Origin: a virus
Virus record (IMG/VR): IMGVR_UViG_3300025769_000935
Location: 1 to 22,290 of that record
Reading direction: 5' to 3' (one strand)
Length of the DNA stretch: 22,290 bases
The notes below the pieces were generated by a model. It was not told the origin of the DNA. It saw only the letters and a list, made by a program, of their open reading frames with translations, and did no database searches. Below, one piece after another: positions 6,984-15,268 of the stretch. How positions within the stretch are numbered: the first letter of the stretch is position 1; every line of letters begins with the position of its first letter. A program made the position numbers and the translations under genes.

Positions 6984-7396
6984 AGTTGCTTTTTAACCTC
7001 TCTAATTTCATTGTATATAGCAGTGGTGCTAACGCAGCAAATATCAGCCAAGTCCGTCACCTTAATGCTTTCATCACCGTTGATGTGGCGCAGCAATAAA
7101 GTTTTTATAAAAGAAGCTTTTGAGCGTTTGTTTTTATTTTTTATAGCAGATATTTCATCCTTGTGTTTTTTCTTTAGGTCAACAGATATAGCCTTGGCTT
7201 TCTTGAGCTTGTCCTTTAATTTGTTAGATTCAGTTAAATGGTTTTCTTTTAACTCTCTGATCAACTTTGAGTTGCCACTTTTTAATGATGATATGCTCTT
7301 ATCTCTATCTGTTAGCATGTTTTTAAGCTTGGTAACTTCTTTTTGTAGTTGCTCAATTTGATCTTTTTGGCTTAAGTATTTTGATAAGTCGCTCAT
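6974..7396 (-). CDS. Coiled-coil protein with C-terminal helix-turn-helix
   Basis: 140 residues. Residues about 8-95 form a long Lys/Glu-rich coiled coil (QIEQLQKEVTKLKNML, KLIRELKENHLTESNKLKDK) with heptad-like spacing of Leu and Ile. Residues about 108-138 (IKVTDLADICCVSTTAIYNE, then IREVKKQL) look like a helix-turn-helix of the kind that tests for short DNA sites. This suggests a dimeric or oligomeric DNA-binding protein. Start and end overlap both neighbours (4 nt with the methyltransferase, 10 nt with the ninB-like gene), so it is translated with them. No named family is recognised. A regulator or DNA organiser is inference. Confidence 0.62.
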   Translation of the reverse strand: MSDLSKYLSQKDQIEQLQKEVTKLKNMLTDRDKSISSLKSGNSKLIRELKENHLTESNKLKDKLKKAKAISVDLKKKHKDEISAIKNKNKRSKASFIKTLLLRHINGDESIKVTDLADICCVSTTAIYNEIREVKKQLCN

Positions 7397-8445
7397 AAGT
7401 TAGCCTCCTTAAAAATGTGAGTTATAACATCATGCGTCCACCCGTTCCCGCACATTTTGTATAATTGCGTATTACTAATACCAGCGCTTAGAAGTGTATC
7501 TATGTGATGCTCTGGCACTGTTTGAAGCCTAAAGCATTCACGTGGTGTTAGTTTTCTATATCTTGCTGCTGTCATTGGCTTACATCTTATAACTAAATTA
7601 TCTTTTTGAACTGTAGTTATAGTGCCTGTTTTGTTGTCGGCCCTTATTTCAATTCGTTGAACTGCTTTTAAGTCAGAATTGTAATCATCACGCTTACCAG
7701 TTTCAGGGTTTATTTTTCTACCAACCATTGAGCCGCATTTAATAAAATTACCGTTCCAATTAGCATGCTGGCGAGCGGTCATACAAATAGCTTTTTCTGT
7801 AGAGCCATCATTGCAGATTGCAGAGTATTTTTTTCTTATTTGAAATTCCTTTTTGACATTAAACCATTTATGCCACCCGTCAGAATTAACGTCCTTGCAA
7901 TCAACCTCAATAATATCCTTTAACAAAATCCCCTTATCTTCTGGCTGCTCAACCTTAAAACTAGTCCAGTAATACCTATTTCTATTCTGCGCTGATACCA
8001 AGGCGCTATTGATTAAAATTTTATGCACACAACCTAAAGCGTTTTCTGTGTGTGTTGTAATATATTCCTCAAATTCCTTTTTCATCTTTACGTTTTCAAT
8101 CATAAAATTAACTTTAGGATTATGATGTTTAACATGTTTCATAACGTCTAACATCGTCCAAAACAGCATGCCCCTTTCATCTTTATCGCCTAACCGCTTG
8201 CCGACCATTGACCATGCCTGACAAGGAAAGCCGCCAGTAACTAGATCAATACTAGCCCAATCAATATCCCATTCACGCCAGTTTAAAATATCACCTAACT
8301 GGATAGTGTCAGGAAACAAAGCTTGTGCCGCCTGGTTGGCGTACTTGTCTATCTCGCTACTGTAGTAATTATCAACTTGAACGCCTAGACTATCTAAAGC
8401 CATACGCCCAAAACTCATTCCATTAAATAAACTTAATACATTCAT
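7393..8445 (-). CDS. C5-cytosine DNA methyltransferase
   Basis: 350 residues from the ATG at 8445; the GTG just before it belongs to the same frame, but AAGGTG ending 5 nt upstream fits the ATG. C5-methyltransferase motifs are in canonical order: motif I FNGMSFGRMAL (7-17), S-adenosylmethionine acidic region SSEIDKYA (29-36), motif IV GGFPCQAWS with catalytic Cys75 (71-79), motif VI MIENVK (115-120), motif VIII QNRNRYYW (153-160), motif IX-like RKLTPRECFRLQTVP (297-311), motif X CGNGWTHDVI (332-341). The protein is intact. No cognate restriction endonuclease is in the window, so it is most likely an orphan phage enzyme that modifies phage DNA against host restriction. The target sequence cannot be read from the gene. 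Confidence 0.93.
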   Translation of the reverse strand: MNVLSLFNGMSFGRMALDSLGVQVDNYYSSEIDKYANQAAQALFPDTIQLGDILNWREWDIDWASIDLVTGGFPCQAWSMVGKRLGDKDERGMLFWTMLDVMKHVKHHNPKVNFMIENVKMKKEFEEYITTHTENALGCVHKILINSALVSAQNRNRYYWTSFKVEQPEDKGILLKDIIEVDCKDVNSDGWHKWFNVKKEFQIRKKYSAICNDGSTEKAICMTARQHANWNGNFIKCGSMVGRKINPETGKRDDYNSDLKAVQRIEIRADNKTGTITTVQKDNLVIRCKPMTAARYRKLTPRECFRLQTVPEHHIDTLLSAGISNTQLYKMCGNGWTHDVITHIFKEANL

Positions 8446-8447
8446 CA

Positions 8448-8762
8448 CTACACCTTTAACCTTATATATGTTTCCAATCTGCCAGAATCACCTCTTTTCT
8501 TAGTTCTCACTATAACGCCGTTACTCTCTAGCACCCTAAGAACCCTATAAATAAATGTCTGGCAAAACCTTGTCTTAACTTCTATTTCAGCAACAGTCAT
8601 ATCATCATGCGTTAAAATACCCTGCAACTTATCAATGCTTTTTTGTGCTGGCGGATATACCTTGCGATCAACTTTTGCTTTTTTAAAGTTTCTTGGCGCG
8701 TACTCTTCTTTTTTTTCTGATCTGTAAATGTGATTAATATCTATTGTTGTCATGTTAAGCAT
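8448..8762 (-). CDS. Small winged-helix DNA-binding protein
   Basis: 104 residues. The N-terminal 40 residues are polar and basic (YAPRNFKKAKVDRKVYPP). Residues about 45-104 form a winged helix: helices LQGILTHDDMTVAEIEVKTR and FCQTFIYRVLRVLESNG, then a wing with IVRTKKR and ETYIRLKV. An alternative ATG lies three codons in (8753); I keep the first because a G-rich site sits close upstream. It overlaps the preceding winged-helix gene by 8 nt and ends 2 nt before the methyltransferase start. Likely a regulator or replication accessory of the leftward operon. Family not identified. Confidence 0.62.
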   Translation of the reverse strand: MLNMTTIDINHIYRSEKKEEYAPRNFKKAKVDRKVYPPAQKSIDKLQGILTHDDMTVAEIEVKTRFCQTFIYRVLRVLESNGVIVRTKKRGDSGRLETYIRLKV

Positions 8763-9408: not shown

Positions 9409-10038
9409 TTATTTGCTACTGCCGACTATAAACTCAACAGAACTTACAATATCAACTAATTTAGCGTTGATTTGTTTCCTAATACTATCCCTAGCAGCGG
9501 CAGCATAAGCAGCAGCAGCAGCAGCAGCATAAGCAGCATCAGCAGTATCAGCAGTATAAGCAGCAGCATCAGCAGCATCAGCAGCATCAGCAGCATCAGC
9601 AGCAGCAGCATAAGTAGCATAAGCAGCAACAGCAGCAGCATTATAAGCAGCAGCATAAGCAGCATCAGCAGCATTATAAGCAGCATTATAAGCAGCAGCA
9701 TAAGCAGCACTCAACTCACACTTAGTTACCGAAGATGCATCGTCTAACCATTTTTTAACTAGTTCAATCGCCTCCCCAGGTGCTTTGTTGTCACTCGTAT
9801 TTTCATAAATAGGTAAAACTAACTCAGCACAAAAGACAGCGAACTCAACAAGTACACGTTTATTTTTTGCCTCACCTAATAACCAAGTAATATCGTTTAT
9901 TGTATTTTCACCGCCCACAAGACTAGACACTTCAAATTCCTTGTCTTTGTCGAAACCACTGCCAAGTTGATTCAGTAGCCTTTGATACCCTGTATTACAA
10001 GGATTTAATTCTCTTATTTTATTTATTGTGATTTTCAT
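9409..10038 (-). CDS. Ala-rich repeat protein (Imm5-like), first gene of the leftward operon
   Basis: 209 residues from the ATG at 10038, preceded by AAAGG at 7 nt; a 21-codon upstream extension in frame (to 10101) lacks a ribosome site. Residues 1-110 are ordinary globular sequence: MKITINKIRELNPCNTGYQR, TWLLGEAKN, a hydrophobic helix VLVEFAVFCAELVLPIYE, APGEAIELVKKWLDDAS. Residues about 112-185 are an extreme Ala-rich tract punctuated by Tyr, Asn and Asp (AAYNAAYNAADAAYAAAYNA, AADAADAADAADAAAY), encoded by a near-perfect simple-sequence repeat. A short normal C terminus follows. The order (MKIT start, xxFAVxCA helix, acidic helix, then AA-x-AA repeats) resembles proteins often labelled Imm5-type putative immunity proteins in phages and bacteria. 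Function in phages is unknown to me. Confidence 0.72.
   Translation of the reverse strand: MKITINKIRELNPCNTGYQRLLNQLGSGFDKDKEFEVSSLVGGENTINDITWLLGEAKNKRVLVEFAVFCAELVLPIYENTSDNKAPGEAIELVKKWLDDASSVTKCELSAAYAAAYNAAYNAADAAYAAAYNAAAVAAYATYAAAADAADAADAADAAAYTADTADAAYAAAAAAAYAAAARDSIRKQINAKLVDIVSSVEFIVGSSK
9498..9710. repeat. Simple-sequence (AGC/ATA-type) trinucleotide repeat tract
   Basis: About 210 bp built almost entirely from the plus-strand units AGC, ATC, ATA and ATT in triplet register (runs such as AGCAGCATCAGCAGCATC). It lies wholly inside the Ala-rich gene and every unit is a multiple of three, so gain or loss of units would change the length of the Ala helix without breaking the frame. 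It could recombine or slip during replication. Confidence 0.9.
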
Positions 10039-10131: not shown

Positions 10132-10195
10132 AGTGGTTGATTTTGTGGTTAGTGTGTAATAAGCTTACAACAACTCAACTAACCAAGGAAAAAAA

Positions 10196-10589: not shown

Positions 10590-11339
10590 ATGTCAAACGG
10601 TTGGATAAAACTACATAGGCAGTTTTTAGATTGGGAATGGTACGACGACATGAATACTAAATGTTTATTTTTGCATTTAATGCTTAAGGCCAATCATAAA
10701 GACAAAAAATACAGAGGCACATTAATAAAAAGAGGACAGCTATTAACTGGTAGGGAAGTACTATCTAACGAAACTGGTCTATCACAACAACAAATAAGAA
10801 CGTGCTTAACTAAGCTAAAATCAACCAACGACATAACCATCAAATCAACCAGCAAAGGAACGCTTGTAACCGTTGATAACTATGACGTTTATCAAGGCGA
10901 TGATAGCGAATCAACCAGCAAATCAACCAACACTTTAACCAACAATCAACCAACAAGTAACCAACAATCAACCACTAACAAGAATGTAAAGAATGATAAT
11001 AATGATAAGAAAGTAAATAAAGATATAGTCGCTAGCGCTCCAAAATTTAACTTCAAAAAAGAGTTACTAGCCTTAGGCGTTGATCCTCAAGTTCTTGATG
11101 ACTGGCTAACGGTTCGCAAGAAAAAACGAGCTAGTAACACTAAGACAGCGTTTAACCTACTTATGACTGAGATTAAAAAATCAGGATTGATGGTTAACGA
11201 TGCTATCGAGTACGCAGCTAGCAAAAGCTGGTCTGGCTTTAAGGCTGAGTGGTGGTTTAATGAAAACAAGGTTTCTCAGATAAAGCAGTATTCTGATGTT
11301 ACAGCTCAAAACATTAAAAATTTAGAAGGTGGTTGGTAA
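10590..11339 (+). CDS. Phage replication initiator/organiser with N-terminal winged helix
   Basis: 249 residues. Residues 1-100 match the phage replication-protein N-terminal domain: MSNGWIKLHRQFLDWEWYDD, LFLHLMLKANHKDKKY, IKRGQLLTGREVLSNETGLS, then QQQIRTCLTKLKSTNDI and TVDNYDVYQ. Residues about 104-145 are a Ser/Thr/Asn/Gln linker. Residues about 150-245 form a C-terminal domain (KELLALGVDPQVLDDWLTVR, AIEYAASKSWSGFKAEWW) of the kind that contacts the helicase-loading machinery. The linker is encoded by tandem 11-12 bp DNA repeats, as in lambda gene O, where origin iterons lie within the initiator gene. The stop overlaps the start of the next gene (TAATG). Role: binds the origin and recruits the loader and host helicase. 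Confidence 0.82.
   Translation: MSNGWIKLHRQFLDWEWYDDMNTKCLFLHLMLKANHKDKKYRGTLIKRGQLLTGREVLSNETGLSQQQIRTCLTKLKSTNDITIKSTSKGTLVTVDNYDVYQGDDSESTSKSTNTLTNNQPTSNQQSTTNKNVKNDNNDKKVNKDIVASAPKFNFKKELLALGVDPQVLDDWLTVRKKKRASNTKTAFNLLMTEIKKSGLMVNDAIEYAASKSWSGFKAEWWFNENKVSQIKQYSDVTAQNIKNLEGGW
10819..10976 (+). repeat. Iteron array inside the replication gene: candidate replication origin
   Basis: Two clusters of 11-12 bp direct repeats with consensus AATCAACCAAC. Cluster 1 is three units at 10819, 10831 (degenerate) and 10843. Cluster 2 is six head-to-tail units at 10909, 10921, 10933, 10944, 10955 and 10966, of which those at 10933 and 10955 are degenerate but keep TAACCAAC. Unit spacing is 12 or 11 bp, near one helical turn. 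An A-rich, poorly paired stretch (10977-11030) follows directly, as next to the lambda origin iterons. One inverted copy, AGTGGTTGATT, lies at 10132-10142 in the control region. Confidence 0.72.
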
Positions 11340-11929
11340 TGGATGATTCAAACAAAAGAGAATTTCAAGAGATTGTCTTGGCAACTGCTGAGCTTTACAG
11401 CACAGTTAAAAAGATTGAAGTAACACCAATCATGCTAAAACTGTTTTTCTCATCGCTTAGAGATTACACGGTTGAGCAGGTTAGTTATGGATTCGAGCAG
11501 CACTTGAGCGACCCTGTTGATGGAAAGTTTTTCCCAAAGCCGGCAAATATTATTAAACACTTAACGGTTGATGAATTGTCTGCTGATGAAAAAGCTGAGC
11601 TAGCTTGGGCGCAAATACAACATCAAATAAGAGCTACTGGCGCTTATGGGAACCTAGATATTGACGACAAGCAAGGGGTGGCAGCATTAAAAGCGTTTAC
11701 AACGTGGAAAGAGCTTTGTGCGATGCCTGTAGACAAGCTTACGTGGGCTAAAAAGGAATTTATAAGCATGTATGCCACTTACCAAAATACACCGCTAGAA
11801 ATGCTTCCTAGCTCGTTGCCTGGTCTAGTGGAATTGCAGGAGCACAAAAAACAAAAAGCGCAATCCATGAAAAACTTACTACAAGGCATGGATGAATTCA
11901 AAAACAAGCAGTTAAACAACAAACAATAA
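11339..11929 (+). CDS. Probable replication accessory protein (helicase-loader-like position)
   Basis: 196 residues from the ATG at 11339, which overlaps the initiator stop (TAATG) with AGAAGGTGG upstream; an in-frame TTG two codons earlier is unlikely. The N-terminal 75 residues carry a pattern common in phage replication accessory proteins of the DUF6475/G39P-like type: helices FQEIVLATAELYSTVKKIEV and LFFSSLRDYTVEQVSYGFEQ, then HLSDPVDGKFFPKPANIIKH. The middle is helical with Trp (AELAWAQIQHQIR) and the C terminus is Lys/Gln-rich. There is no Walker motif, so it is not a DnaC-type ATPase. Immediate coupling to the initiator gene argues for a helicase-loading role like lambda P. Identity of the family is moderate, function is inference. 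Confidence 0.62.
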   Translation: MDDSNKREFQEIVLATAELYSTVKKIEVTPIMLKLFFSSLRDYTVEQVSYGFEQHLSDPVDGKFFPKPANIIKHLTVDELSADEKAELAWAQIQHQIRATGAYGNLDIDDKQGVAALKAFTTWKELCAMPVDKLTWAKKEFISMYATYQNTPLEMLPSSLPGLVELQEHKKQKAQSMKNLLQGMDEFKNKQLNNKQ

Positions 11930-13895: not shown

Positions 13896-14077
13896 TGGAT
13901 ATACACAGAATACCAAGTGATAAAAAAGGCGCTGAAATAGCGTTAAAATCTGAAAAGGCCGCTTTATTAGAGTTACATCAGATGATAATAGAAAATGATT
14001 TAACCAAGGCGTACCAGGTTACGGGCTTGATTAATAATTTAGTAGAAGAAATTGACGAGGTTTTAGGTGATGAGTGA
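13895..14077 (+). CDS. Unknown 60-residue helical protein
   Basis: Starts at the ATG of a TAATG overlap. It is predicted almost all helical: a polar start (MDIHRIPSDKKGAEIALKSE) then two amphipathic helices (AALLELHQMIIENDLTKAYQ, TGLINNLVEEIDEVLGDE). The stop overlaps the start of the annealing-protein gene by 8 nt, so it is part of the recombination operon. No recognised motif; it could be a small regulator or partner of the recombinase. Confidence 0.58.
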   Translation: MDIHRIPSDKKGAEIALKSEKAALLELHQMIIENDLTKAYQVTGLINNLVEEIDEVLGDE

Positions 14078-14645
14078 AGTATTTAAGGTTTTAAACAATG
14101 TTGATATATCATCGTTGGTACAAATGAAAGGCAAGCTGCCTTATCTTTCATGGTCTAACGCGGTTCGTGAGGCTAGTAAGCTTTTCCCTGAAATAACTTG
14201 GGAAATGACAAAGTGGGATAGCTTACCATTTCTAAAAACAGAGGTTGGTTATTTTGTTGAGTGTACAGTAACTATCAACGGCCTTTCAAAAACTCAAATG
14301 ATGCCAGTGTTAGATTTTAAAAATCAAACGGCAACAGCTCCAAAAGCTAATGATATAAATAAAGCTCAGATGAGGGCTTTAACTAAAGCTATAGCCTTGC
14401 ATGGTCTTGGTTTGGATTTGTGGGCAGGCGAGGACATAAATGGCGAGTACGAGGGGGACGGCAGTAAAAAAATAGATTTGACCATTGACACAGACCAGGT
14501 TGAGCAGTTGTTAGCATTACTATGTGATGAAAATGGCATGTATACAGAGAAAGGTCTTAAAGTGTGTCAAGCGTTTAAGTTTAAAAACTTAAATGAGGTG
14601 AAAACAAAAGATTTCGATAAAATTTTAAAGGTGGCTAAGTCATGA
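14070..14645 (+). CDS. Sak3/DUF1071-like single-strand annealing protein
   Basis: 191 residues from the ATG at 14070, with GAGG 9 nt upstream; the GTG one codon earlier belongs to the ribosome site. Diagnostic features of the DUF1071 (Sak3) family are in order: LPYLSWSNAVREASKLFPE (23-41), a strand with VGYFVECTVTINGL (59-72), MMPVLDFKNQTA (77-88), then NDINKAQMRALTKAIALHGL followed by GLDLWAGED (94-122). The helical C-terminal extension (residues 140-190) is typical. These proteins are Rad52-like recombinases that anneal complementary single strands in phage recombination. The next genes, overlapping by 4 nt, encode the matching exonuclease and SSB, giving a complete recombination set. Confidence 0.8.
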   Translation: MSEVFKVLNNVDISSLVQMKGKLPYLSWSNAVREASKLFPEITWEMTKWDSLPFLKTEVGYFVECTVTINGLSKTQMMPVLDFKNQTATAPKANDINKAQMRALTKAIALHGLGLDLWAGEDINGEYEGDGSKKIDLTIDTDQVEQLLALLCDENGMYTEKGLKVCQAFKFKNLNEVKTKDFDKILKVAKS

Positions 14646-15268
14646 ACATAATTGAAACATGCGAACAGGGTAGCTCAGAATGGCATAAGTTGCGTCTTGG
14701 CAGGATAACAGCATCAAAAATGAAAGATGTACTATCAAAAGGACGTGGTACAGCTCCAAGCAAAACGGCAGAAAGTTACATGATGGAATTGCTAGCAGAA
14801 AGATTAACAGGCGAGCCAAAGCCATTCTTTGAAAACGATGCTATGCGTTGGGGAACTGAGACAGAGCCGCAAGCTCGGGCTATGTATGAGCTTAAAAGCG
14901 GTAATACTGTAAAGGAGGTAGCTTTTATAGCGGAGGGTGATCATCTAGGTGTTAGCCCTGACGGTTTAATTGGTGATGATGGTATGTTAGAGATAAAATG
15001 CCCGACTACCATAACTCAAATTCGCAGGGCCTTAACTGACAACTACAGCAACGACTATTACGAGCAGATACAGATGCAACTTTGGATTGCTCAGCGCCAA
15101 TGGTGTGACTTTTTAAGCTTTGATCCTAGGCTTGATGTTGATGCTGGTTATTTATTACAGCGTGTAGAGCGTGATGAGGAATTCATAAAAAATATGGAAG
15201 AAAAAACAGGGTTATTTATTACTAAAATGAACGACCTTTACGAGCAGTTAACTAAAGAGGAAAAATAA
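14642..15268 (+). CDS. YqaJ/lambda Exo-type recombination exonuclease
   Basis: 208 residues; start overlaps the preceding stop (ATGA) with AAGGTGG upstream. The PD-(D/E)XK exonuclease motifs of the YqaJ family are complete: QGSSEWHKLRLGRITASK (9-26), MRWGTETEPQARAMYE (68-83), GVSPDGLIG with the catalytic Asp107 (103-111), MLEIKCP with Glu117 and Lys119 (115-121), and YYEQIQMQLWIA (139-150). The enzyme resects double-stranded ends 5' to 3' to give the single strands used by the annealing protein. Length is normal for the family and no key residue is missing. Confidence 0.92.
   Translation: MNIIETCEQGSSEWHKLRLGRITASKMKDVLSKGRGTAPSKTAESYMMELLAERLTGEPKPFFENDAMRWGTETEPQARAMYELKSGNTVKEVAFIAEGDHLGVSPDGLIGDDGMLEIKCPTTITQIRRALTDNYSNDYYEQIQMQLWIAQRQWCDFLSFDPRLDVDAGYLLQRVERDEEFIKNMEEKTGLFITKMNDLYEQLTKEEK

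Follow-up and report, generated by a model that had tools for sequence, protein, structure and literature searches.

A candidate replication origin within a DnaD-like phage initiator gene, with iterons reaching into the codons of its own winged helix

What is the role of short direct repeats lying inside the gene for a phage replication initiator? This question is raised by the virus DNA of IMG/VR record IMGVR_UViG_3300025769_000935, analyzed here as a single stretch of 22,290 bp (the window), possibly a fragment of a longer genome, in which an initiator or replisome-organizer gene carries two tandem arrays of an 11-12 bp unit followed by an A-rich tract (Table 1). Our analysis indicates that positions 10819-11030 are very probably the replication origin of the phage, located inside the initiator gene, with iterons bound by the N-terminal domain of the initiator itself. 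In the proposed mechanism, the N-terminal winged helix would bind nine direct iterons, six in codons of the linker and three in codons of its own wing, and the bound molecules would align along one face of the DNA. The A-rich tract just downstream would then be opened, the replicative helicase would be loaded via an exchangeable C-terminal domain, and replication would start at this site. Which iteron sequence is read would be set by residues 55, 56, and 67.

The sequence AATCAACCA has seven exact copies in the window, compared with a mean of 0.32 and a maximum of 2 in shuffled sequence, and six of the seven are within the initiator gene, at 10819, 10843, 10909, 10921, 10944, and 10966. Since three imperfect units (CATAACCATC near 10831, TTTAACCAAC near 10933, and AGTAACCAAC near 10955) stand beside these six exact copies, a total of nine units is reasonable. 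In the register of the 9-mer AACCAACAA, the units of array 1 start at 10823, 10835, and 10847, and those of array 2 at 10913, 10925, 10937, 10948, 10959, and 10970. The successive spacings are thus 12, 12, 66, 12, 12, 11, 11, and 11 bp, where 66 is 6 x 11, and both arrays were recovered independently by Tandem Repeats Finder (TRF). The 54 nt at 10977-11030 are 79.6% AT and 57% A, which places them in the top 0.5% and the top 0.09%, respectively, of the 54-nt windows of the record. These counts, spacings, and AT content agree with an earlier sequence-only reading, which had described a three-unit and a six-unit array with steps of 11-12 bp, followed by an A-rich stretch, and the sequence description given there is therefore correct. 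Its placement of both arrays in the linker-coding part of the gene holds for the six-unit array, which alone falls in the disordered linker, but not for the three-unit array, which occupies codons 76-91 (10815-10862), where, in the AlphaFold2 model, the recognition helix ends and the wing follows. The wing step of 12 bp preserves the reading frame; the linker step is mostly 11 bp, with one DNA unit read in all three frames.

The same reading had called the origin lambda-style, which fits the layout but not the protein family. PHROG 2514 (DnaD-like helicase loader) matches residues 2-144 of the initiator (6.6e-34) and PHROG 678 (replication initiation, O-like) matches residues 56-228 (3.8e-23). 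A Pfam search of the initiator found no family at the curated cut-off, and neither an O family (including lambda O and Phage_rep_O) nor RepA_N at E <= 1. Judged by these profiles, the gene product is a DnaD-like phage replisome organizer and not a member of the lambda-O family. It consists of an N-terminal winged helix (residues 1-102), a disordered linker (~103-150), and a C-terminal helical domain (155-245). AlphaFold2 models residues 21-100 as a winged helix with pLDDT ~95, including helix 2 (55-62), the recognition helix (66-78), and the wing strands (82-87 and 90-95), gives low confidence to the linker (103-150), and resumes helices past 155. The top fold matches of the model are CAP/CRP-type winged helices (Z ~10), some of them DNA-bound entries; the RepA_N initiator N-terminal domain structures 4pt7 and 4pql are also among the matches and score lower (4pql: Z 8.6, root-mean-square deviation 7.1, 101 aligned). 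A search of solved structures by sequence gave weak winged-helix matches only. By motif, residue 67 aligns with what we take to be its counterpart in CAP, the base-contacting Glu181.

Residues 147-246 share 43% identity with the C-termini of Acinetobacter phage O proteins, whose genes adjoin DnaB-like helicase genes, and we infer that the C-terminal domain is the helicase-recruiting part. In the two nearest relatives the similarity is confined to residues 1-147 and 1-129, and the C-termini differ; therefore, the N-terminal domain and the repeats travel together. The gene immediately 3' of the initiator (11339-11929) matches PHROG 10105 and DUF6475, and its position suggests that its product may be a helicase-loader partner.

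Are the arrays a property of this one phage or of its family? Our set of 331 homologous N-terminal loci, in which some entries are overlapping fetches from one contig, forms 99 lineages at 70% identity; a search of genome contigs gave two weak loci, and 11 remote matches came from 296 genomes of the order of a Vibrio genome. The 11-bp linker array is found in most of the 99 lineages, with a best lag of 11 in 70 and of 22 in 10 more, and both the lag-11 peak of the linker (t = 20.2) and the lag-12 peak of the wing segment (t = 10.8) stand above a codon-preserving null. The places of the arrays are generally kept over these divergent lineages, and the unit sequence varies from phage to phage (AACCAACAA, AACAAACGA, GGCAAGCAA, GACAGGCAA, and others) on a common scaffold, RRC-NNN-C-NA. 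Relative to codon 76, wing units recur at ~+5 and +17, in some cases also at +29, with the linker units beginning at ~+83 or +95, and AT content averaged over the relatives peaks 3' of the linker array. Thus, the repeats behave as initiator-binding iterons within the initiator gene, next to an AT-rich tract, as the sequence-only reading had proposed, and comparison of homologues did not find them lost or shuffled where the protein domains are kept. The short direct unit, which had seemed unusual, is so beside lambda, but it is standard within its own family.

Origins at this place in an initiator gene have precedents. In SPP1, the repeats of oriL that are bound by the initiator gp38 are located in gene 38, beside an AT-rich unwinding region (PMC6316719), and the present locus likewise combines a phage replisome organizer, putative origin repeats in its own gene, and an adjoining AT-rich region. 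In lambda, iterons and an AT-rich tract lie mid-gene in O (PMC7466680), an arrangement that is predicted here from sequence. The lambda annotation has four iterons of 18 bp, 20-24 bp apart, starting at about codon 117. These come after the DNA-binding domain of O, unlike the nine units of 11-12 bp seen here, three of which are in wing codons of a protein with no match to a Pfam O family. Plasmid pSK41 Rep has an N-terminal winged helix that binds Rep boxes centrally in rep, a linker encoded by the origin, and exchangeable modules (PMC5703833). The present protein is like it in having an N-terminal winged helix, putative binding sites in the middle of the gene, a linker encoded by the candidate origin, and exchangeable modules; however, the four Rep boxes of pSK41 are in the part that encodes the linker, and no Pfam RepA_N match was obtained here. 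Among DnaD-like organizers, Listeria phage A118 gp49 has a homologous N-terminal domain followed by ACAACG repeats; the present initiator matches the PHROG 2514 profile over its N-terminal domain and, like most of the 99 lineages, has linker repeats 3' of the winged-helix codons. TP901-1 Rep was considered as a direct homologue and rejected, as its N-terminus and repeats differ by eye.

Alternatively, the repeats may be initiator sites for autoregulation or copy-number control (handcuffing), with replication starting elsewhere. Iteron-based copy-number control is known in plasmids, and the window contains an extra reverse-strand unit in the intergenic region upstream. However, such upstream copies are inconsistent among relatives, whereas the AT-rich tract stands beside the arrays in the same place in relatives on average, and SPP1 and lambda have their origins at the same gene position; we therefore regard this explanation as unlikely. 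The upstream unit is the seventh exact AATCAACCA (10134-10142, minus strand, upstream of early genes); ~11 bp from it lies another, imperfect unit, TAACCAC. It could be an operator in this phage; as a conserved operator it was rejected, relatives having no consistent counterpart.

Wing and linker share a unit that is specific to each phage. Over the 99 lineages, wing DNA scores 14.07 against the linker of the same phage and 9.13 against the linkers of other phages (permutation z 21.7); the controls, four further segments of the N-terminal region, give z of 0.1-1.7. Synonymous resampling of the wing lowers the wing-linker score from 14.10 to 9.60, and the own-linker match is individually significant (0.05) in 68 of the 99 lineages.

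Furthermore, residues of the recognition domain covary with repeat bases in the manner of a DNA-recognition code. The strongest association of any N-terminal residue is that of residue 67 with unit base 1 (mutual information z 24.5); outside the repeat-encoded codons, residue 67 is next linked to base 2, and residues 54-56 to bases 4-5. Among the 167 relatives with a callable unit, Gln67 goes with A at position 1 in 92 of 92 and Arg67 with G in 35 of 41, and Lys67 goes with GG over the first two bases (10 of 11 at each). At position 4, C accompanies Arg55 (60/71) and A accompanies Leu, Tyr, Ile, Val, Thr, or Phe at residue 55 (89/91); at position 5, G accompanies Pro56 (15/15). On a tree built from 81 columns, with the tested residue columns excluded, independent pairs over all branches were 24:0 for residue 67 and base 1, 15:0 for Arg55 and C4, and 8:0 in each of two further tests, and 36 tests with control residues were mostly balanced (lowest p 0.039). 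In held-out lineages, less than 80% identical to every training sequence, base 1 was predicted correctly in 35 of 37 cases against a baseline of 19, and its two misses were the two remote matches from the 296-genome search that had entered the held-out set. These results suggest that residue 67 reads unit position 1 and that residues 54-56 read positions 4-5.

The best indication that wing DNA serves as putative binding sites is its bias in synonymous codons. The Ser78 codon is TCA in all 67 phages with Gln67 and TCG in all 18 with Arg67, and the Thr83 codon is ACC in 63 of 64 phages with Arg55 and ACA in 58 of 61 without it. Thr codons 5-75, in contrast, show no Arg55-linked split (ACC 20% vs 23%). 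Independent pairs were 12:0 for each of the two codon choices, and the Ser78 and Thr83 tests gave p values of 1e-19 to 1e-32, as compared with a lowest p of 3.7e-5 for the third bases of 38 control codons.

The likeness of wing and linker could also be a product of mutation (slippage or gene conversion), without the wing units having been selected for binding; in that case the linker array would still be the origin. Tandem repeats homogenize, and phage-specific bases are common to wing and linker units. However, the order of 12-bp wing steps, a gap of ~67 bp, and then 12 and 11 bp is met again in lineages whose units differ, the wing fold is retained, and the third bases of single wing codons track the recognition residues in independent changes, which makes this origin of the likeness very unlikely. 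Scarcely credible, and already contradicted, is the idea that the repeats reflect the protein alone, its linker being of low complexity (Thr/Asn/Gln/Ser) and its wing repetitive, and have no function as DNA: the linker is indeed disordered in the model and rich in these residues, but one DNA unit occurs in all three reading frames, the lag of 11, which is not divisible by three, stands above the codon-preserving null, synonymous wing codons follow residues 55 and 67, and repeat bases covary with N-terminal residues that are encoded outside the repeats.

Several points weigh against an origin read by its own winged helix. All the evidence is computational. Of 208 distinct relatives, 41 had no unit that the caller could place cleanly. 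Restricting the tree tests to well-supported branches leaves them short of power (3:0, 2:0, and 3:0), and the larger counts need all branches. The residue-base pairs were the best of a large number and were then tested on the very sequences from which they had been picked; the held-out set alone is exempt, and within that set the prediction of base 4 was barely better than baseline (33/39 vs 30/39). Finally, some control third bases associate with residue 67, albeit far more weakly (lowest p 3.7e-5 among 38), as is expected from base composition or kinship.

Table 1. Features of the initiator gene and its candidate origin, in window positions
Feature	Positions	Strand	Basis
Initiator/replisome-organizer gene, 249 aa	10590-11339	+	PHROG matches, AlphaFold2 model, CAP-type winged-helix matches
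Codons Gly54-Arg55-Glu56, start of helix 2	10749-10757	+	Covariation with unit positions 4-5; 15:0 independent pairs
Codon Gln67, recognition helix	10788-10790	+	Covariation with unit position 1; 24:0 independent pairs; 35/37 held-out
Iteron array 1 (putative)	10819-10856	+	Three units, 12-bp in-frame steps; codons of recognition-helix end and wing
Iteron array 2 (putative)	10909-10976	+	Six units at 12, 12, 11, 11, 11 bp; linker codons
A-rich tract, candidate DNA-unwinding element	10977-11030	.	AT and A content; AT peak in same place in relatives on average
C-terminal helical domain region	11055-11336	+	Helices within residues 155-245; kin to the C-termini of 'replication protein O' from Acinetobacter phages

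Elsewhere in the window, the minus strand carries a gene for an Ala/Tyr/Asp-rich protein (9409-10038) with an extended AGCAGC-type tandem repeat at 9493-9709 and matches to PHROGs of unknown function, as well as a C-5 cytosine DNA methyltransferase gene (7396-8448; Pfam 7e-40). A recombination pair is encoded at 14070-15265: first a Sak-type single-strand annealing protein, then a YqaJ-type exonuclease.

Origins within initiator genes are already known, and it is the overlap with the wing and the readable code that appear new. No description of either for DnaD-like organizers was found in the open-access literature, to which our search was confined, and an earlier description available by subscription only is therefore possible. 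Protein-DNA recognition codes are normally derived by laboratory screens. Here every sequenced relative has the protein and its putative site together, which amounts to hundreds of naturally matched pairs, and the rules drawn from them can be tested with single substitutions. The results also point to a constraint on synonymous codons in a folded DNA-binding domain, imposed by the DNA which that domain appears to read, and suggest how phages can swap C-terminal loaders yet keep initiator and origin matched. In summary, it is likely that the origin reaches into the codons of its own DNA-binding domain and that wing, iteron, and recognition residues evolve as a linked unit, so that each such gene would record both a DNA-binding protein and its site, in a code that can be read from metagenomes.
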